Of a DNA stretch of 64,000 bases, positions 39,029 through 54,017 are shown one piece after another. Position numbers and translations under genes: made by a program. The stretch's first letter is position 1. Every line of letters starts with the position of its first letter. The stretch is taken from the NCBI GenBank assembly GCA_017427945.1, contig JAFRRT010000014.1:124001-188000 (forward strand). Reading direction: 5' to 3'. The DNA comes from Muribaculaceae bacterium. GTDB taxonomy: Bacteria > Bacteroidota > Bacteroidia > Bacteroidales > Muribaculaceae. A model generated the notes under the pieces. That model worked only from the letters and a program-made list of their open reading frames with translations. It ran no database searches and had not been told where the DNA came from.

Positions 39029-39045
39029 TACCTTTATTGAAGTAT

Positions 39046-40137
39046 ATGAACAAAGCTATTATTTCTATATTAGATAAAGACTATTCACAGTGGATTAAGG
39101 AACTGAGTCGCCGTTACCGCAGGAGCCAAATTAAAGCTGCGGTGAAAGTCAATGAAGAGGTTCTTAGATTCTATTGGGAACTTGGAAAGGATATTGTAGA
39201 ACGAGATGCTGAGAACCATTATGGAAGTAAGTTCTATACAACTTTAAGTCGAGATCTTAAGGCTGAAATCCAGAATGCTAGTGGACTGTCTGAACGTAAT
39301 TTGCGTTACACAAAACGATTCTATTTGCTTTATAATAAAGTAGTTAATATTTTGCAGCAAGATGTTGCAAATTCTGACGAATTAATTTTGCAGCAAGTTG
39401 CTGCAAAAATGTTCATGTTGCCATGGGGACATCATTTGATACTAATGGACAGGTTCTCAAATAATCCAGAAAAAGTTTGGTACTATGTCTGTGAATCTGT
39501 CAACCATGGTTGGAGCAGGAATATGCTTTTGAATTTCCTTGATACCAACCTGTATGAGCGCAACAGTAAGGCATTGACGAATTTCTCAAGAACTCTACCA
39601 GAAGAAACAAGTGACTTGGCGCAAGAACTGACTAAGGATCCATACAATTTTGCATTCACAGGGATAACTGGACGTTACAACGAACGACTGCTGAAAGATG
39701 GATTACTGAATAATATAACTCGATTTTTGGTGGAACTTGGGACTGGTTTTGCGTATGTTGGTAAGGAGTATCGAATCCAAGTTGGAAATACCGAAAATTA
39801 TATTGATTTGCTTTTCTATAATCTCAACTTGTCTTGCTATGTGGTCATTGAGGTAAAGATTGGTAAATTTGAATTTGCTGATGTAGGGCAAATAGGCGGC
39901 TATGTCGTGGCTTGTAATCATACGTTGCGAAAGGAAGGCCGCGACAATCCCACTATAGGTTTGCTTATCTGCAAAGAAAAAGACCGCATACAAGCCCAGT
40001 ATGCGCTAGAATCAAGCAGCCAGCCTATTGGCATCTCAGAGTACGAACTCGAAAAGTTCTATCCCGAGAAAGTGGAAGGCACCATACCTACAATTAAAGA
40101 GATTGAGGCAAAATTGAACGAAAAGGAATTTGAATAA
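39046..40137 (+). CDS. DUF1016/YhcG-family PD-(D/E)XK nuclease
   Basis: 363 residues. N-terminal DUF1016_N helical domain (WIKELSRRYRRSQIKAAVKV, FYWELGKDIVERD, LSERNLRYTKRFY, LPWGHH) and C-terminal PD-(D/E)XK nuclease domain with the catalytic pattern IDLLFYN and VVIEVKIGKF, then GQIGGYV. YhcG-like proteins are common in mobile and defence-associated regions; the biochemical target is not established. The ATG at 39046 is preferred to a TTG at 39037. AT-rich for the window, flanked by housekeeping genes, 5 bp before kdsB. The coding sequence holds a perfect 23-bp palindrome. Confidence 0.9.
   Translation: MNKAIISILDKDYSQWIKELSRRYRRSQIKAAVKVNEEVLRFYWELGKDIVERDAENHYGSKFYTTLSRDLKAEIQNASGLSERNLRYTKRFYLLYNKVVNILQQDVANSDELILQQVAAKMFMLPWGHHLILMDRFSNNPEKVWYYVCESVNHGWSRNMLLNFLDTNLYERNSKALTNFSRTLPEETSDLAQELTKDPYNFAFTGITGRYNERLLKDGLLNNITRFLVELGTGFAYVGKEYRIQVGNTENYIDLLFYNLNLSCYVVIEVKIGKFEFADVGQIGGYVVACNHTLRKEGRDNPTIGLLICKEKDRIQAQYALESSSQPIGISEYELEKFYPEKVEGTIPTIKEIEAKLNEKEFE
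39349..39408. repeat. Paired inverted repeats inside the nuclease gene
   Basis: The unit TTTTGCAGCAAG plus a TGCAAA end occurs twice, 36 bp apart. The second (39386-39408) is a perfect palindrome with 11-base arms around one G; the first is imperfect. They fall in the linker encoding LQQDVANS and LQQVAAK. Confidence 0.7.
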
Positions 40138-40142
40138 AATAT

Positions 40143-40895
40143 ATGGATAAGGATTTGACGTTTATTGGGATTATTCCGGCGAGGTATGCCTCGACGAGGT
40201 TTCCTGGCAAGCCGCTGGCAATGCTGGGCGGCATGACGATGATTGAGCGGGTTTACCGCCAGGTGAGCAAGGCGCTCGACCATGTGGTGGTCGCCACCGA
40301 CGATGACCGCATCATGCAGGCAGTGGAAGCCTTTGGAGGAAGGGCAGTGATGACGAGCACTGAGCACCGCAGCGGCACCGACCGCTGTCAGGAGGCATAC
40401 ATGAAGAATGGCGGCAACGAGGACATCATCATCAACATCCAGGGCGACGAACCGTTTATTCAGCCCGATCAGCTGCAAGCCATCATGTCGTGCTTTGACG
40501 ACGAGGACACCGATATTGCCACACTGGTACGCCCATTCGACCCCAGCCGTCCATATAATGAACTGGAGAATCCCAACACGCCCAAGGTCGTGCTGGACAG
40601 CCAGATGCGCGCCCGCTATTTCTCACGCTCGGTCATCCCTTACATCCGTGGCCGCGAACGTGAAGAATGGCCTGCTGCTACACAGTATTACACACATGTG
40701 GGCATGTACGCCTACCGTGCTGCCGTCTTGGCCGAAATCACACGCTTGCCACAGTCGCCGCTTGAATTGGCCGAGTCGTTGGAACAACTGCGCTGGCTTG
40801 AGAACGGCTACACCATCAAGGCGGGCATCACAACCACGGCAACCATCGGCATCGATACCCCCGAAGACCTCGCCCGCGCCGAGGAATATTTGAAA

Positions 40896-40904
<9 letters not shown>
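40143..40904 (+). CDS. kdsB: 3-deoxy-manno-octulosonate cytidylyltransferase (CMP-Kdo synthetase)
   Basis: 253 residues. Canonical KdsB: N-terminal nucleotide-binding loop IIPARYASTRFPGKPL, TSTEHRSGTDRCQEA, NIQGDEPFI and the C-terminal GIDTPEDL motif. Activates Kdo with CTP for lipopolysaccharide inner core. A second KdsB-like protein is encoded at 48.7-49.4 kb; this copy is closer to the standard family and is the likely Kdo enzyme. Its stop codon begins a short heptad repeat before lacZ. Confidence 0.94.
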
Positions 40905-48005: not shown

Positions 48006-48578
48006 ATGAAGAAATTCTTAATGACTCTCATGGTGGCAGTTTTCGCTGTTGGCGCAATGTCTGCCCAGACCGCTAAGACCACCACACAACAGGTTGTTGT
48101 AGAGAAAAAACACGAATGCAAAGACCACCAGGACGGCAAACCTTGCACCAAGCCCGCCGACCAGCAGTGCGATGACTGCAAGGCTAAGGCTGCCGAGATG
48201 AAGAAGCACGAACGCAAAGAAGGCATGGGCAAGAAGTGTGACAAAGCCGAAGGCATGAAGCACGAGTGCAAAGAGGGCCAGGGCCACGACTGCAAGAAGG
48301 GCGAAGGCATGAAGCACGAATGCAAAGAAGGCATGGGCAAGAAGTGTGACAAAGCCGAGGGCATGAAGCATGAATGCAAAGAGGGCAAGGGCCACGACTG
48401 CAAGAAAGCCGAAGGCATGAAGCATGAATGCAAGGAAGGCATGGACAAGAAGTGTGATAAAGCCGAGGCCATGAAAAAGCATGAGCAGTGCAAGGATCAC
48501 AAGGATGGCCAGAAGTGCGACAAGCCCGCCGACCAGCAGTGCCCCGATTGCAAGGAGAAAGCTGCTAAAAAGAACTAA
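48006..48578 (+). CDS. Exported Cys/Lys/His-rich repeat protein, putative metal binder
   Basis: 190 residues. Signal peptide (MKKFLMTLMVAVFAVGAMSA), then an extremely Lys/Cys/His/Glu-rich protein: 17 cysteines, all after the signal. Five 18-residue repeats (67-156) follow the pattern KHECKEGxGxxCxKxEGM and alternate between a GKKCDK and a GHDCKK version. They are flanked by two copies of a 34-residue block containing KPADQQC and a CxxC pair (34-67 and 157-190). I do not recognise a family. The regular Cys and His spacing in an exported protein suggests binding of a soft metal such as Cu, Zn or Ni, or a disulfide-linked structure; both are inference. Confidence 0.7.
   Translation: MKKFLMTLMVAVFAVGAMSAQTAKTTTQQVVVEKKHECKDHQDGKPCTKPADQQCDDCKAKAAEMKKHERKEGMGKKCDKAEGMKHECKEGQGHDCKKGEGMKHECKEGMGKKCDKAEGMKHECKEGKGHDCKKAEGMKHECKEGMDKKCDKAEAMKKHEQCKDHKDGQKCDKPADQQCPDCKEKAAKKN
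48204..48473 (+). repeat. Five 54-bp tandem coding repeats
   Basis: Units of exactly 54 bp. Odd and even units are each more alike than neighbours, so a 108-bp pair was the recent duplication unit. Confidence 0.85.
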
Positions 48579-48613
48579 AGTTTCTCAGAGACCGCAAAGG
48601 TTATAACAAGACA

Positions 48614-48656
48614 AGAATATCCCCGATTTCAGTGTAAATCGGGGATATTCTTTTTA
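48614..48656. terminator. Bidirectional terminator
   Basis: Sixteen-base perfect stem (48614-48629 with 48636-48651) around a 6-nt loop, followed by TTTTATT. Between the repeat protein gene and the convergent glycan operon. Confidence 0.9.
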
Positions 48657-48695: not shown

Positions 48696-49448
48696 TTAGT
48701 CGAGGTGGTTGTCTTGCATGTACTGGATAACGCGCTGCAGGTCGTTAGGAGTATCAACGGCAATGGTCTCGCTGTCCACCTCAATGTAATGGACATGGTA
48801 ACCATTCTCGATGAAGCGCAAAATCTCGATGTCCTCAACCGACTCAACCTTGGCTTTGCCATACTTCTTGCCGTAGTCACAATAGAACTTGAGTGCCTCG
48901 GGCCTAAAGCCATAGACACACACCTGCTTGTAGTACTTCACGTTGATATTTCCTTTGGGGAACGGGGCCGCCGAACGAGTCAAGAACACACCGCGTCCGT
49001 CACCCGAAGCGATGACCTTAGGAACAGTGAAGTTAATCAGGTCAACAGGGTCGTGAATCTCGGTCATCAGGTTGGTAACCATAATGGGCGTATCGGGATT
49101 CTCAAGATAAGGAACTATCGCTGCACGAATCGTCTCAGGCTCAATGAGCGGCTCATCGCCCTGAATGTTGACATACAGGTCGGCGGGAATCTTCTCGGCA
49201 ACTTCACCTATGCGGTCAGTTCCCGTGCGATGGGACGTCGATGTCATGACCACGTTGATGCCACGTTCCTGACAGGCGTTAAAGATGCGGGAGTCATCGG
49301 TCGCCACATACACTTCAGTAAATTCGGCCACTTTCTTTGCCTGAAGATAGACGCGTTCTATCATCAGTTTGCCACAAATCTCGGCTAACGGCTTGCCCTC
49401 AAACCTTGAGGACTGATAACGTGCTGGAATAACGGCTATGATTTTCAT
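48696..49448 (-). CDS. KdsB-like CMP-sugar synthetase (second copy)
   Basis: 250 residues. CMP-Kdo synthetase fold: IPARYQSSRFEGKPL, TSTSHRTGTDR, YVNIQGDEPLIEPE and IAVDTPNDL. It is clearly divergent from the kdsB at 40.1 kb: the middle region has NLMTEIHDPVDLINFTVPKV and TRSAAPFPKG in place of the usual motifs. As last gene of a glycan cassette whose previous gene is a pyruvate-type aldolase, it may activate a different 2-keto-3-deoxy sugar acid with CTP. Capsular KpsU-type Kdo activation is the alternative. Thirteen bp separate it from the aldolase gene. Confidence 0.85.
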   Translation of the reverse strand: MKIIAVIPARYQSSRFEGKPLAEICGKLMIERVYLQAKKVAEFTEVYVATDDSRIFNACQERGINVVMTSTSHRTGTDRIGEVAEKIPADLYVNIQGDEPLIEPETIRAAIVPYLENPDTPIMVTNLMTEIHDPVDLINFTVPKVIASGDGRGVFLTRSAAPFPKGNINVKYYKQVCVYGFRPEALKFYCDYGKKYGKAKVESVEDIEILRFIENGYHVHYIEVDSETIAVDTPNDLQRVIQYMQDNHLD

Positions 49449-49460
49449 ATTGTAAAGGTC

Positions 49461-50999
49461 TTAAAGGTATTGATAAATGGATTTAACATGCAGACTGCGA
49501 TAGATGCTCGGCGTGAGCGAAACCAACGGAATCGACGTGAACTTCTCGAACTGGCGGAAGAGTGTGCGGTTCTCGCTGCTCAGCTCCATCTCTTTGTCTG
49601 AGAGCACCTGGCCACGATAGCCGTCATATCCTACAACGAAGACATCGGTCGGGGACATCTCGATGGCCGTCTGCAACGCCACGGTGGTGCAGGAGTCGAC
49701 ATAATCGTCAGTAAAGCTGATTTTTTCCAGCTCATAAGTATCCTTGGTGGCATAGGAAGGCACCTCGGTTCCCATTGCCCTGGGATAGGGAGATAACACG
49801 CAAACCCCCTTGAACTCACCTGCAGGCATCACAGTTTCCATGCGTCTGGCCTCGTTACCCACAAGAACATAGTACTTGTCGTTCTTCACGTCCTTGAACC
49901 GGGCGGCATGACGTGCGGTGGCAAACACAACAGCCATATTGGGATGCATTTCGGTAAACTCCTTGATGGCCCTAACATGCTCGGCGGCACTCTCACCGCC
50001 ACCCACAATGAGCACCTCGTCATAATGGGCTGTCGGCAAAATGCCGAAATGGGCATTATCGGCAATGTGGTTGCGCTTGTTGTCCACGGCCCTGACAATG
50101 CTATTGAAGCTGTAGGCCCTGTTGGTACACCACGCCATCACCTCTTTTTGCGGGATGGAATTTGCTCCCGAAATCATATAGGGCAAAGTGGTACCCCAAC
50201 CATGCTGACGCAGCAACGGCATATAGGCGGTGATCGCATCGCCCAGCACATTGAAGTCAACCTCAAGCCCCTGCCGGTTCAGGCAAGTGAGCAGCAGCTC
50301 GATATTGAGGTTTCCGGCGCCACGTCCCATACCAAGTATTGTTCCGTCCACCGACTTAACGCCGCACTTAATGGCAGTAAGCGTGTTGATGAGCGCCATC
50401 TGCAGGTTGTTGTGACCATGGAAGCCCAATGGACAATCGGTAATCTCCTGAATCGCCGAAATGGTGCTGGCGACATCCTCAGGCATCATGCTACCAAAAG
50501 AATCCACCATATTGAAAATCGTCACCACATCTTTCAACTGCGCGAATTTCGGTAGCAGTCCTTCGTACTCTCCCCACTTGGACATATACATCAAGTTAAA
50601 GCCCACCTCAAAGCCAGCCTCCTTGATATGTTTTGCCAAGTTGATGGCGCGGTCTATGTTCTTCGGGTCAACAGCAATCCTGATCATGTCAACCACGCCC
50701 TCAATGGGGGCCACCAAATACGGCAGGTCCTCGACTCGAGAGCTCTTCTCGTTGATCATCACCGCAATCTTCTTGTCGCATCGCTCACGTATTCTTCTGA
50801 GCGACGACACGGGACAATAGCCATACTCTCCCATGTAAGTCTTATCAGGGTTATTGCGATAGCCCACCTCAATGTAATCTATGGGCAAAGTATTCACCGC
50901 ATCCAGGTAGGTCCCCACCACATCAGGGGCAAAGTCCCAGTCGGTGTAGTACCCGCCGTCACGCAGTGTACAATCGAGAATTTGAAATTTACGTTCCAT
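49461..50999 (-). CDS. DRE-TIM (HMGL-like) aldolase fused to a DUF115-like Rossmann domain
   Basis: 512 residues. Residues 1 to about 290 are a DRE-TIM metallolyase: LDCTLRDGG with Arg13 and Asp14, metal ligands His194 and His196 in GFHGHNNLQ, and GMGRGAGN at 223-230. This is the pattern of 4-hydroxy-2-oxovalerate aldolase and HMG-CoA lyase. The remaining 220 residues start with EVLIVGGGESAAEH (about 328-341) and resemble the nucleotide-binding core of DUF115/MptE-like proteins. By family chemistry the first part would join or split pyruvate and an aldehyde. In a cassette with a CMP-sugar synthetase, synthesis of a 2-keto sugar acid is inferred. I know of no characterised protein with this fusion. 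Overlaps the upstream gene by 11 bp. Confidence 0.75.
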   Translation of the reverse strand: MERKFQILDCTLRDGGYYTDWDFAPDVVGTYLDAVNTLPIDYIEVGYRNNPDKTYMGEYGYCPVSSLRRIRERCDKKIAVMINEKSSRVEDLPYLVAPIEGVVDMIRIAVDPKNIDRAINLAKHIKEAGFEVGFNLMYMSKWGEYEGLLPKFAQLKDVVTIFNMVDSFGSMMPEDVASTISAIQEITDCPLGFHGHNNLQMALINTLTAIKCGVKSVDGTILGMGRGAGNLNIELLLTCLNRQGLEVDFNVLGDAITAYMPLLRQHGWGTTLPYMISGANSIPQKEVMAWCTNRAYSFNSIVRAVDNKRNHIADNAHFGILPTAHYDEVLIVGGGESAAEHVRAIKEFTEMHPNMAVVFATARHAARFKDVKNDKYYVLVGNEARRMETVMPAGEFKGVCVLSPYPRAMGTEVPSYATKDTYELEKISFTDDYVDSCTTVALQTAIEMSPTDVFVVGYDGYRGQVLSDKEMELSSENRTLFRQFEKFTSIPLVSLTPSIYRSLHVKSIYQYL

Positions 51000-52137
51000 G
51001 AAGTATTAACTGTTTTGTTTTAGAAGCAAAAAATAACGCCCTATACTGGATAGCGCTTTTTAAATATTTTGGATATAACGAAGTACGTTTAATTGATTTA
51101 ACCAACCCATGTTGGGGATAGAGTGACAAGAACCTATCACGACCCGGGTGGCGACTACAGGAACCATTGAGCTGACCATTCTTCTTGAGTGCCATTTCAA
51201 GTGGCCGTTCCACATATCGAATACTGTTTCCACAATCCTTGAGGAAACGTTCTCCCTTAGCAGTGTTACACAACACAACCGATATAAAGCGATGGTTGGG
51301 CATCTCGGCAGTTCTTTCCAACCCCCAGAAATCCCCTACGGTCAAATCCCCGTAACGCTGAGTCGAGGCATAGGGGCACTGATAACAGTTCTCTCTGCTT
51401 ATCAATCCCTTGAGATAGGCCGTATAAAAAATATCCACCAATTTGTATTTCCGATAGAGAACATCCTCGCCAAGAGAAGCCACCATCGACATACCGTTTT
51501 TCCCTCGGAAAACTACATTATCGTAATCGTCGATTCCCTTTCCTTGCAGGTATTCATTCAGATAAGTTATGGGAGCCACACCATGACAAACCAAATCCAC
51601 CGCCAGTAAATTTTCATAATCCTTTTGTAAATACTGCCGAAGACCGTGAATCTGACAAGGTGTACCGGTAAACATCACCATCACTCCCTCATCCAGTTTT
51701 TGCTTGACTTCAGTATAAACATCACCAGCAAACGCATGTACATAGCGGCTTCCCTGGCATTTGAGATATTCATTGACTGACGTAGCACCCGTGAATACCA
51801 ATTGCTTCTCGTGTAGCTTCACACCGAATGCCGTCCCACCATTCCTGATGATGTGACAAGCCAAAGTTGTGACCACACCAGCTGAAGCTGCATTCTCAAT
51901 TAATTGTTTATCGGTCGACCAAGCAGCGAAGCATTTCTGGACACTATTCGAAGAGATAACATTTTGCGTCAGAGCAGGGCAGACCATTCGACACAAGCCG
52001 CACTCCACACAAGCGTTAGCGTCTATCACAGGATAAAGCGCACCACTTTCATCACTGCGAAATTGAATCGCATGATGCGGACAGACACTGTAGCAAGTAC
52101 AGCAACCTGTACATTTATTATGGTCGCATAGCTCCAT
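50989..52137 (-). CDS. Fe-S protein of the F420 hydrogenase/dehydrogenase beta-subunit family
   Basis: 382 residues. N-terminal double 4Fe-4S ferredoxin (CTGCCTCYSVCPHHAI; CVECGLCRMVCP), then FrhB/FdhB N- and C-terminal domains (GTPCQIHGLRQYL, LVCHGVAP, CPYASTQRYGDLTVGDFWG). In Bacteroidetes, which do not make F420, such proteins recur beside polysaccharide pyruvyl transferases in surface glycan clusters and are thought to be flavin-dependent redox enzymes. Overlaps its upstream neighbour by 20 bp, showing tight translational coupling. The substrate is unknown. Confidence 0.85.
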   Translation of the reverse strand: MELCDHNKCTGCCTCYSVCPHHAIQFRSDESGALYPVIDANACVECGLCRMVCPALTQNVISSNSVQKCFAAWSTDKQLIENAASAGVVTTLACHIIRNGGTAFGVKLHEKQLVFTGATSVNEYLKCQGSRYVHAFAGDVYTEVKQKLDEGVMVMFTGTPCQIHGLRQYLQKDYENLLAVDLVCHGVAPITYLNEYLQGKGIDDYDNVVFRGKNGMSMVASLGEDVLYRKYKLVDIFYTAYLKGLISRENCYQCPYASTQRYGDLTVGDFWGLERTAEMPNHRFISVVLCNTAKGERFLKDCGNSIRYVERPLEMALKKNGQLNGSCSRHPGRDRFLSLYPQHGLVKSIKRTSLYPKYLKSAIQYRALFFASKTKQLILHGT

Positions 52138-53245
52138 CTAAAAAGGCCTTGGAAAATTTGATCATTGGAGACAACTTCGACTCAACGGCGGTCCAGTCTA
52201 TCTCTTTACCCATCGACTCAGGATCACCCTCACGAAATACAATTCTATCAGCGAGTCCAAGTGTATCCATCAGGCTATAGATGCGCGATGCTGTTCCCTG
52301 TTCCGGTGTTCCATGAACAAAAACTTGGAAACTCTTTTTCAGAATGATAGATAACGCGGAACCATGGAATGAGTTGGTAAAAACATATTTTGCTCCGCCA
52401 AGTAAAGAGATAAACTCTGCAGGGCCAGCATCATATCGCTTGATGTTGGGATATAACCATTCACGTAGATTCTTGTCTACCACTACAACAGGAAGTTTAT
52501 ACCTCTTGGATACAGATTTGACATAATCTCTCATTTCAGAAGAGCCGCCATGAACTGAATAGAAAAAAATGTAGGGTTTTTTGATTTTCTTGTCATCCCT
52601 CATCACTTTTTGCCATTGCTCACTTGACAACAAGAAAACCGGATCCATAACCTGTACGGTTTCTTTCCCACTTATCGATGAAATAACATCGACTGCATTC
52701 TGTTCCCGGACAGACAACGCAGAAAAATCTGATAACTCTTCATGGAACTTAGAAACGAGATCAGGATGAACAGATGACATTCCCATACTGGCGGCATATG
52801 ATAATCTGACACCCTTGTCTTTTGCAAAAGCAAGGAGAAACGCGTCATCATAATTTTTGCAGAAAGTGTTCCAGATTTGATCACTGCCACAAATGTAGTA
52901 ATCATAGTCCAAATCGGCTTTGGCTAAGTCAGCATTGCTATAATACACGTCCTTGGACAACCGTATATTATCATTGATAAAACCTTTAACCCTCTCATTT
53001 CGACATTTAAGTTTCCTCAAGTGAATTAAAGTATCAATATTTCTAATTATATTCATCGGATGTTTCATTGGGCGCATAAAGTATTTATAGCTCATTGCAA
53101 CACGATATGTTCTGAAATCAATTGTCTCTGCATCAAAACCTAACGCATTCAAATAATAATTCAATGCATAAGCCTGCAAAACCGCACCATAATTATTTAT
53201 CATGTGAATCGTGACGATTCCTACCCGTTTCTTCTTGTTTTCCAT
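52118..53245 (-). CDS. Polysaccharide pyruvyl transferase family protein
   Basis: 375 residues. PS_pyruv_trans family (CsaB/WcaK-like): GIVTIHMINNYGAVLQAYALN at the N-terminus, YYICGSDQIWN and a C-terminal FTNSFHGSALSIIL. Characterised members add pyruvate ketals from PEP to sugars of capsules, exopolysaccharides or cell-wall glycans. More AT-rich than the housekeeping genes, as is usual for surface glycan loci. Cytoplasmic. The paired Fe-S protein gene follows with overlap. Confidence 0.88.
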   Translation of the reverse strand: MENKKKRVGIVTIHMINNYGAVLQAYALNYYLNALGFDAETIDFRTYRVAMSYKYFMRPMKHPMNIIRNIDTLIHLRKLKCRNERVKGFINDNIRLSKDVYYSNADLAKADLDYDYYICGSDQIWNTFCKNYDDAFLLAFAKDKGVRLSYAASMGMSSVHPDLVSKFHEELSDFSALSVREQNAVDVISSISGKETVQVMDPVFLLSSEQWQKVMRDDKKIKKPYIFFYSVHGGSSEMRDYVKSVSKRYKLPVVVVDKNLREWLYPNIKRYDAGPAEFISLLGGAKYVFTNSFHGSALSIILKKSFQVFVHGTPEQGTASRIYSLMDTLGLADRIVFREGDPESMGKEIDWTAVESKLSPMIKFSKAFLDGAMRP

Positions 53246-53258
53246 TGCTCAAAAAAAA

Positions 53259-54017
53259 TTATTTACGTAAGACCTCGTCAAGGTTGACACGTTCAAAGGC
53301 CTCGAGCTTTCCGCCACGCGTGGCATTGTAAACCGTGAAGCCCTCATGTGCATCGGCAAACTTCCTTGCCGTCATGTAGGCCATCGTGCTCTCGACTATG
53401 CGAGGCAGGTTCAAGCCCTTATTGCTCGCCTTAGAACCCTCAAAATAGTCCTTGACATCATCTTTCATGACAGGAACGCCTTTCTCGTTCAGGCTGATTG
53501 AGTAGTTGTGGTCAATACCCAAAAGATAGACCTCGCTGAAACCCATGTAGTAAGCCAACTGAATCGCGCCATAGGTCACGGTGAAACCCTGTCCCATATA
53601 TCGGTGAATGCGGGTACTGAAATCGGCGTCACCAGGATAGAAATCTTTGTGGCGCAGGACGAAATAGGAGATTCTGTCGTTATCGCCAAAATTTGGTTTG
53701 GTGTCAATAGGCAGGAAAATGCGGCGGCATTCAACCGTTTTGATATCCTCCTGGAATTTATCTATCAACTTAAAATCCTGATTGACGTAATAGGTCGGCC
53801 TCCAGGTAGTCTTCGGGAATATCTCAAAGATACGGTTGGAGCCAAAGGTTATCTCGCCTTTCAGGTTCTCAAGGTCTTCAATGGTCAAACTGGGGCCCGT
53901 CCCGATAACGAAACAACGCTTCCCTTGATGTATTCCCTTGAACTGTTTCAATTCATTGCAGAGGGAATAATTCTGATAATATTGTTTGAGAGAGAAAAAG
54001 TATTCTTTCTTACCCAT
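53259..54017 (-). CDS. DUF115 (Maf/MptE-like) protein
   Basis: 252 residues. Nucleotide-binding start CFVIGTGPSLTIEDLENLKG (about 35-54), then FGSNRIFEIF and VTYGAIQLAYYMGFSEVYLLGIDHNYS, typical of DUF115/MAF_flag10. Characterised relatives are the Maf transferases that move pseudaminic or legionaminic acid from CMP to flagellin, and archaeal 6-hydroxymethylpterin kinase MptE. In this cassette, with a CMP-sugar synthetase, a transferase role for a CMP-linked acid sugar fits best but is inference. First gene of the operon. Confidence 0.75.
   Translation of the reverse strand: MGKKEYFFSLKQYYQNYSLCNELKQFKGIHQGKRCFVIGTGPSLTIEDLENLKGEITFGSNRIFEIFPKTTWRPTYYVNQDFKLIDKFQEDIKTVECRRIFLPIDTKPNFGDNDRISYFVLRHKDFYPGDADFSTRIHRYMGQGFTVTYGAIQLAYYMGFSEVYLLGIDHNYSISLNEKGVPVMKDDVKDYFEGSKASNKGLNLPRIVESTMAYMTARKFADAHEGFTVYNATRGGKLEAFERVNLDEVLRK

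Follow-up and report, generated by a model that had tools for sequence, protein, structure and literature searches.

A fused DRE-TIM aldolase and its synthetase partner mark a candidate movable cassette for a CMP-linked 2-keto-3-deoxy sugar acid

Five adjacent minus-strand open reading frames (ORFs) lie at 48696..54017 of a 64,000-nucleotide stretch of the Muribaculaceae contig JAFRRT010000014.1 (positions 124,001 to 188,000; hereafter the window). They include an aldolase fused to a second domain (Ald) and a KdsB-like synthetase (KdsB2). It is proposed here, with a rough probability of 0.55, that they represent a small movable cassette for a cytidine monophosphate (CMP)-linked 2-keto-3-deoxy sugar acid, or ulosonate. 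The best-supported part of this proposal is that Ald and its partner, a CMP-sugar-acid synthetase (CMP-transferase), almost certainly work in one pathway, because the two genes are linked across loci and the partner has been swapped. The recurring unit is the fusion Ald adjoining the synthetase, which is smaller than the five genes. The original prediction saw in these genes a complete route to a new CMP-activated sugar acid. Its central idea survives in a sharper form, as what is by context a variant of CMP-ulosonate synthesis. It did not foresee the HAD phosphatase partner, the probable MptE-like character of the fused C-terminal domain or the swapping of partners. The cassette comprises the following features:

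53259..54017, minus strand: DUF115/MptE-like protein, 252 amino acids (PF01973); candidate CMP-sugar-acid transferase
52118..53245, minus strand: polysaccharide pyruvyl transferase family protein, 375 amino acids (PF04230); accessory
50989..52137, minus strand: FrhB/FdhB-like Fe-S protein, 382 amino acids (PF04432, PF04422, 4Fe-4S); accessory
49461..50999, minus strand: Ald, whole fusion ORF, HMGL-like barrel plus C-terminal domain
50040..50999, minus strand: Ald N-terminal DRE-TIM barrel, residues ~1-320, HMGL-like; candidate pyruvate aldolase
49461..50036, minus strand: Ald C-terminal domain, residues 322-512; likely a distant MptE/DUF115-like domain
48696..49448, minus strand: KdsB2, KdsB-like CMP-sugar-acid synthetase (PF02348), in the Ald-linked clade

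The linkage was surveyed at 43 fusion-type loci, made up of 33 from a contig scan, eight places in seven whole genomes, one Leisingera plasmid and the window. The contig scan used the aldolase alone and returned, besides these 33, one locus that was cut short (34 in total); because loci were fetched in this way, the partner did not bias the sampling. Not counted were L098, on the same contig as L049, and L067-L070, which repeat L033, L035, L036 and L040, while L004-L010 were superseded by the longer L090-L097 (the eight places mentioned above). The plasmid records examined were all of the ten except H2, H5 and H8; L171 and L172 came after the counts. A synthetase gene lies on the same strand within 5 kilobases (kb) in 41 of the 43 fusion loci, versus 1 of 13 homologues without the C-terminal domain (Fisher p 2e-9). 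Leaving out the three such homologues that end close to the gene (L064, L084 and L089) gives 1 of 10 (p 1.2e-7). The gap between Ald and the synthetase is at most 120 bases in 33/43 loci. The predicted co-occurrence of the aldolase fusion with a CMP-sugar-acid synthetase is therefore borne out.

Other genes also accompany the pair. With the same strand and 5-kb limit, a HAD protein was found at 20/43 loci (weakly at L043 and L044, with 42 and 48 bits), a DUF115/MptE-like gene at 15/43 (L094 at 54 bits), an HpcH/HpaI-type aldolase at 4/43 and a PfkB kinase at 2/43, versus 0, 0, 1 and 0, respectively, of the 13 homologues without the C-terminal domain. Pfam scans of example partners identified HAD_2 in three, HpcH_HpaI in one (L054) and PfkB in one. 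In a survey of 111 representatives from 159 neighbour-protein clusters, the remaining neighbours included glycosyltransferases (six each, in two families), epimerases, flippases and O-antigen ligases (three each). By record title, the fusion rows span seven phyla, with Leisingera represented by a plasmid. Strain names are given for the records of Leisingera, Chitinophaga, Prevotella and Megasphaera; among them, L045 is from the cultured Prevotella sp. ne3005 and L058 from the cultured Chitinophaga vietnamensis. On Leisingera plasmids, the annotated order aldolase - KdsB - HAD occurs among polysaccharide genes.

The partner itself comes in two kinds. KdsB2 matches PF02348 (CTP_transf_3) at 153.5 bits and passes both the PRK13368 subfamily (278.6, cut-off 255) and the PRK05450.1-5 subfamilies, but falls below the kdsB equivalogs TIGR00466 (149.4 of 155.2) and NF003948 (170.3 of 281). 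In a tree of 69 synthetases, 17 KdsB-like Ald-linked rows, the window included, are split off by one branch (SH-aLRT 99) from 28 non-linked rows, and this clade includes Prochlorococcus, Patescibacteria and Alphaproteobacteria. The 24 PseF-like linked rows, out of 41 linked synthetases in the tree, form another clade (support 86), and the second gene of L048, a non-linked row, is placed on the PseF side. Three PseF-like partners that were scanned carry the Pfam family CTP_transf_3 and score 54.7-76.6 against a PseF cut-off of 205.7. On the Ald tree, the partner type switches between KdsB-like and PseF-like seven times, at least four of them on firm branches. Two clades that swap beside one aldolase are expected to do the same job, which would be CMP activation of the Ald product. 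Both trees are of a quick type, with very long branches for L066, L062 and L090; the synthetase tree used 24 of 27 extra KdsB matches (L102, L104-L129; L109, L110 and L126 were lost in trimming), and the 29-bit synthetase match of L091 was too weak for it. In line with the KdsB paralogue of the original prediction, the KdsB copy of the cassette groups separately from canonical KdsB, and its genome holds a normal kdsB as well. KdsB2 likely acts on an acid other than Kdo. For the KdsB residues that bind Kdo, an excerpt of PMC3149649 gave a domain-level description only.

Two loci are unusual in their own right. At L061 (10287-11618, minus strand), the Ald-linked clade is represented by a KdsB-like protein of 443 amino acids, longer than usual and encoded on the strand opposite the aldolase. 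The Megasphaera aldolase of L066 (7989-9596) has the C-terminal domain and sits on a very long branch.

Ald is a fusion whose barrel ends near residue 320 and is followed by about 190 more residues. In Pfam, the barrel matches HMGL-like at 92.6 bits, and no other family matches Ald above its cut-off. The closest solved structure is PDB 3dxi, a 'putative aldolase' (434 bits over residues 5-317), which shares the signature motifs but whose solved chain is the barrel only. This entry is presumably Bvu_2661 of Bacteroides vulgatus, for which a conserved-domain entry gives the function as unknown. No function for 3dxi was found in print in open-licence PubMed Central full text, a collection that holds no preprints. 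The next nearest structures are 4-hydroxy-2-oxovalerate aldolases, at 71 to 56 bits.

Residues R13, D14, R107, D166, H194 and H196 are invariant in 43/43 fusions and also in 13/13 homologues without the C-terminal domain. When aligned to 1nvm, R13, D14, H194 and H196 supply the Arg-Asp and His-X-His motifs that Ald shares, together with the barrel, with DmpG and BphI and that have catalytic and metal-binding roles. The position of the catalytic His21 of DmpG is Tyr17 in 43/43 fusions, and Ald scores 106.2 against the cut-off of 286 for the 4-hydroxy-2-oxovalerate aldolase equivalog TIGR03217. The label 'DmpG-type' used in the original prediction was thus too strong. Ald further differs from DmpG and BphI in its C-terminal domain and, as predicted from conserved residues, in a polar acceptor pocket. 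The relevant position was located with a numbering offset of one residue between BphI and DmpG. In these fusions it is Asn in 38 and Asp in 5 of 43, and an excerpt of PMC3962088 describes its BphI counterpart, Leu-89, as facing the aldehyde tail. Two basic residues point the same way: K85 is kept in 40/43 fusions versus 2/13 homologues without the C-terminal domain, and R48 in 40/43 versus 1/13. From these three positions, we infer a pyruvate-aldolase-like enzyme with a polar acceptor. Ald probably forms a 2-keto-3-deoxy acid from pyruvate.

On this basis, four steps are proposed. The metal-dependent Ald barrel would add pyruvate to a polar aldehyde, probably a sugar or sugar phosphate, and so do the job of KdsA or NeuB, which use phosphoenolpyruvate. 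If the product is phosphorylated, a HAD phosphatase would strip the phosphate; this step is not encoded in the cassette, and in the window genome KdsC or another HAD protein could serve, while about half of the related loci encode a HAD protein. KdsB2 would then couple the sugar acid to CMP, a step strongly supported by context, and the DUF115/MptE-like protein would transfer the sugar acid to a glycan or protein. Two genes, for the pyruvyl transferase and the Fe-S protein, would have been added later, probably modifying the product or the glycan. By context, a CMP-ulosonate route that needs neither NeuB nor KdsA is thus supported, with candidate product, donor and acceptor.

Several observations weigh against this proposal. 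The L061 synthetase, on the other strand, is an exception among the 43 loci, no synthetase was found near the L066 fusion, and L091 is counted among the 41 on a match of only 29 bits. At 28/43 loci, some of them short, a same-strand search within 5 kb turned up no DUF115 gene, and a HAD gene is missing from the window cassette. The 43 rows also include many close relatives and many metagenome bins. Because Tyr17 replaces His21 in every fusion, the acid/base chemistry of Ald must, going by the alignment, differ from that of DmpG and BphI. Finally, the HpcH/HpaI-type aldolase may perform the pyruvate step in the four clusters that have one. It is a pyruvate aldolase gene lying directly downstream in the Ald clusters of L054, L090, L091 and L093.

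The last two points also feed an alternative in which the barrel uses another donor (acetyl-CoA or a different 2-keto acid) or cleaves its substrate, so that a different acidic sugar is CMP-activated. Consistent with this, Ald is below the cut-off in all 25 NCBIfam matches listed (of 29). Nevertheless, this alternative appears rather unlikely: the structures nearest to Ald after 3dxi are pyruvate aldolases, the partners are of the kind that activates 2-keto acids, and an HpcH-type gene was not found in 39/43 clusters.

The relation to Kdo synthesis can be judged from the genomes that carry Ald. The window genome encodes KdsA outside the cassette (377.7 bits), KdsC (111.4, cut-off 106.95) and a second, canonical KdsB:

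40143..40904, plus strand: canonical kdsB paralogue outside the cassette (PF02348, 191.1 bits), grouping with non-linked KdsB

With these three genes present, the cassette in the window genome supplements Kdo synthesis rather than replacing it. A Pfam scan of the five ORFs found no KdsA in the cassette, and a search for NeuB-type synthases gave no match in the window genome (96% complete), whereas the control search found NeuB in 9/14. The claim of a route without NeuB or KdsA thus holds for the cassette, and for NeuB in the genome, but not in the sense of a genome lacking normal Kdo genes. KdsA was found in 6/10 further Ald-positive genomes and was not found in G054, G112, G123 and G203 (98-100% complete; NeuB was not sought there). 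Because 4/10 lack a KdsA match, the route can exist without Kdo synthesis. With KdsB2 as query at E<=1e-25, 220/296 genomes were matched; G054, G112 and G203 were not, and G123 gave only the linked copy, although a more distant KdsB could be missed at this threshold.

These data bear on the possibility that the cassette is a second route to ordinary Kdo, with Ald replacing KdsA and KdsB2 acting as a further CMP-Kdo synthetase. PRK13368, whose cut-off KdsB2 passes, is a Kdo-cytidylyltransferase subfamily, the HAD neighbours parallel KdsC, and the four genomes without a KdsA match would fit. Such a route is nonetheless unlikely, and ordinary Kdo duplication was rejected as the principal explanation: the window genome already has kdsA, kdsC and kdsB and the cassette is present in only 5/37 genus genomes, KdsB2 lies below both kdsB equivalogs in a clade of its own, and the same aldolase family elsewhere pairs with PseF-like synthetases.

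The proposed CMP-ulosonate route resembles known pathways in outline and departs from them in its enzymes. It shares with the Kdo pathway (KdsA-KdsC-KdsB) the proposed order of C-C bond formation, phosphatase and CMP activation, and KdsB2 is a KdsB homologue. Its first enzyme, however, would be a DRE-TIM aldolase fusion where KdsA is a phosphoenolpyruvate-using synthase, its synthetases belong to a separate clade or are PseF-like, and the three HAD neighbours scanned by family lie under every KdsC cut-off. Nonulosonate pathways depend on NeuB/NeuA, PseI/PseF or LegI/LegF. The proposed route would share with them a CMP-activated 2-keto-3-deoxy acid, and 24/41 of its linked synthetases are PseF-like; it differs in the lack of a NeuB-type match in the window genome and in the low PseF scores of the three partners scanned.

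The C-terminal domain of Ald is most similar to the MptE-like family. Of 40 such domains, 32 match PF01973 at E<=1 (best 7.1e-6; window 0.035), while the second-best Pfam family is matched by only two. When ten were scanned singly, seven reached E<=0.1 and none exceeded the gathering score of 34.6, the top score among the matches listed being 23.5; the L097 domain spans positions 23-165 of the 171-position profile (E 5.2e-5). An hhalign comparison with four unlinked MptE-like proteins, taken from a family search independent of the aldolase, gave E 5.7e-5 over 128 columns, versus 0.37 for a HAD control set and 0.023 over 20 columns, at the same motif, for a KdsB set. Profile comparison with the linked DUF115 set gave E 5.1e-6 over only 28 columns, and matches to solved structures were at chance level (best E 0.54). 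The motif residues D459, Y461, E476, T496 and Y500 are each kept in at least 40/43 fusions. Taken together, these profile matches make it likely, but do not prove, that this is a distant MptE/Maf-like domain.

The separate DUF115 protein is a member of PF01973 by score (51.8 bits, cut-off 34.6). A profile of 15 relatives matches PDB 5mu5 (E 0.0014), named 'uncharacterized protein' and presumably a Maf protein, and, weakly, the CMP-Neu5Ac sialyltransferase 9c08 (E 0.03). PF01973 is matched by 14 of the 15 aligned relatives, that of L051 being the exception. MptE-like genes are rare, with a match in 6/80 phylum genomes (the window's included) and a match over the cut-off in 4/80. An excerpt of PMC11339370 describes a resemblance of the Maf domain (pfam01973) to Cst-II and the use of CMP-Neu5Ac and CMP-Kdo by Maf enzymes. 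The flagellin Maf described in that excerpt is a three-domain protein, and the window protein is not of that type. By analogy with these enzymes, the DUF115 protein may well transfer the CMP-linked acid. The prediction that a DUF115 gene accompanies the pair holds to the extent of the 15/43 loci given above.

It could instead be the fused C-terminal domain that acts as transferase, with the separate DUF115 gene adding something else where present. The domain is probably distantly MptE-like, it keeps its motif residues, and none of the 41 same-strand pairs lacks it, compared with the minority of loci that have a DUF115 gene. However, acceptors must vary across polysaccharide clusters, a variability that would fit poorly with fusion to the first enzyme. 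In addition, its listed PF01973 scores stay below the gathering score, and, as MptE is named a pterin diphosphokinase, transfer cannot be read from the family. This alternative is distinctly unlikely. A broader extension of the CMP-ulosonate proposal is rather unlikely as a whole, and is put forward tentatively: a single polypeptide joining the C-C-forming aldolase to an MptE/Cst-II-like domain that holds or transfers the CMP-sugar could, with two plug-in synthetase clades, form a third way to CMP-ulosonates, alongside those of KdsA and NeuB and spread over seven phyla by record title. An entire class of surface acid sugars would then have been missed for want of the marker genes by which they are predicted.

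The two remaining genes behave as add-ons. The pyruvyl transferase (PF04230, 115.4 against 25.3; CsaB equivalog score 15.1 of 213.1) and the Fe-S protein (PF04432, FrhB_FdhB_C, 75.3 bits; PF04422, 36.9 bits; two 4Fe-4S stretches) are each the only match in their own genome. Their guanine-plus-cytosine contents (0.392 and 0.445) are the lowest in the run, compared with 0.517 for Ald, 0.503 for KdsB2 and 0.511 for the window. Both occur at 3/10 DUF115-Ald-KdsB loci (the ten being the window, L033-L040 and L047), for which reason the five-gene set was rejected as a unit, contrary to the original prediction. That prediction had staked itself on the five genes co-occurring elsewhere; the core pair does recur, but all five are found together only in the window, L033 and L034, and at L033 an additional 518-amino-acid ORF separates the DUF115 gene from the pyruvyl transferase gene. 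That all five form one pathway with these two as essential steps is highly improbable: they are single-copy and lie inside the run at these three loci, yet both are absent from 7/10 and differ in base composition from Ald and KdsB2.

The cassette is an accessory islet found at more than one chromosomal site. The aldolase occurs in 5/37 genus genomes searched, its own included, many of them incomplete. Among 30 acyltransferase loci in the genus, the cassette adjoins the acyltransferase gene in two (L139, which is the window, and L148). At L143, L147, L152, L153, L159 and L162, the acyltransferase and rluD are no more than 0.8 kb apart and have no part of the cassette between them, and the genus search gave no aldolase match in these genomes; at the remaining loci, the flank is too short or different. 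The cassette occupies the acyltransferase site in the window, L033 and L034. At L037 it lies between GH2 and PASTA genes, both of which are present at L035 with other genes between; L036 has the PASTA side only and L038 the GH2 side only. At L039 it adjoins a family-2 glycosyltransferase gene, which by clustering is the same gene at L040.

NeuB or KdsA is the usual basis for predicting surface acid sugars, among them sialic acids and Kdo. If Ald makes a sugar acid, glycans of gut Bacteroidota, marine bacteria and others would be invisible to such prediction. From the conserved pair come a suggested, concrete function for the solved but unassigned aldolase fold 3dxi and a genetic marker for the sugar, and partner swapping provides an assay-free reason for putting CMP activation first. 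In the PubMed Central collection described above, no title or abstract opening names this aldolase in a CMP-sugar pathway. Likewise, by title or abstract start, none of the papers found there on DRE-TIM, HOA_like, Bvu_2661 or 3DXI concerns this family; some of them, on glucosinolate enzymes, mention DRE-TIM.

Not all relatives of Ald belong to this context. The gene contexts of single-domain homologues on plasmids (L079-L082, L171) are different, which argues against placing every HMGL-like aldolase in the pathway. For example, those on the L079 (Mesorhizobium) and L081 (Paraburkholderia) plasmids lie beside SDR and HAD-IA genes, with a phosphoserine aminotransferase gene also adjoining that of L081, and apparently serve another pathway. 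L099 (3643-6549) has a 681-amino-acid protein, with an Ald-like barrel but no fused domain, that adjoins a weak synthetase match (53 bits), and is possibly a divergent third arrangement. A phage collection gave two partial matches, neither covering 80% of the query.

Within the window, the claimed layout was reproduced: five adjacent same-strand ORFs joined by two overlaps (11 and 20 bases) and two gaps of 12-13 bases, each with a family label above its curated Pfam cut-off. The claim of one consensus promoter did not hold up, as the promoter is no better than chance. There are 16 sigma-70-like matches in the region versus 10.8 +/- 2.7 in shuffles, in a scan without a Bacteroidota promoter model, and the match 5' of the first cassette gene (54061-54033) agrees at 9/12 positions. 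Terminator-like sites in the region total 5 versus 4.9 in shuffles, which is not above chance. The stem that follows the last cassette gene is by far the longest of those listed:

48613..48652, no strand assigned: terminator-like inverted repeat, 17 pairs, between the cassette and the convergent gene 48006..48578

The genes flanking the cassette are not a capsule cluster. A family scan identified panB and the acyltransferase among them; the others are presumably rluD-like, metallophosphatase-like and tex-like. Directly 5' of the canonical kdsB lies a YhcG/DUF1016-type PDDEXK nuclease gene (39037-40137, plus strand). The convergent gene at 48006-48578 (plus strand) encodes a 190-amino-acid protein whose Pfam and NCBIfam matches are all below cut-off. 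By eye, it has an export-signal-like start and repeats rich in Cys, His and Lys, and it could bind metal.

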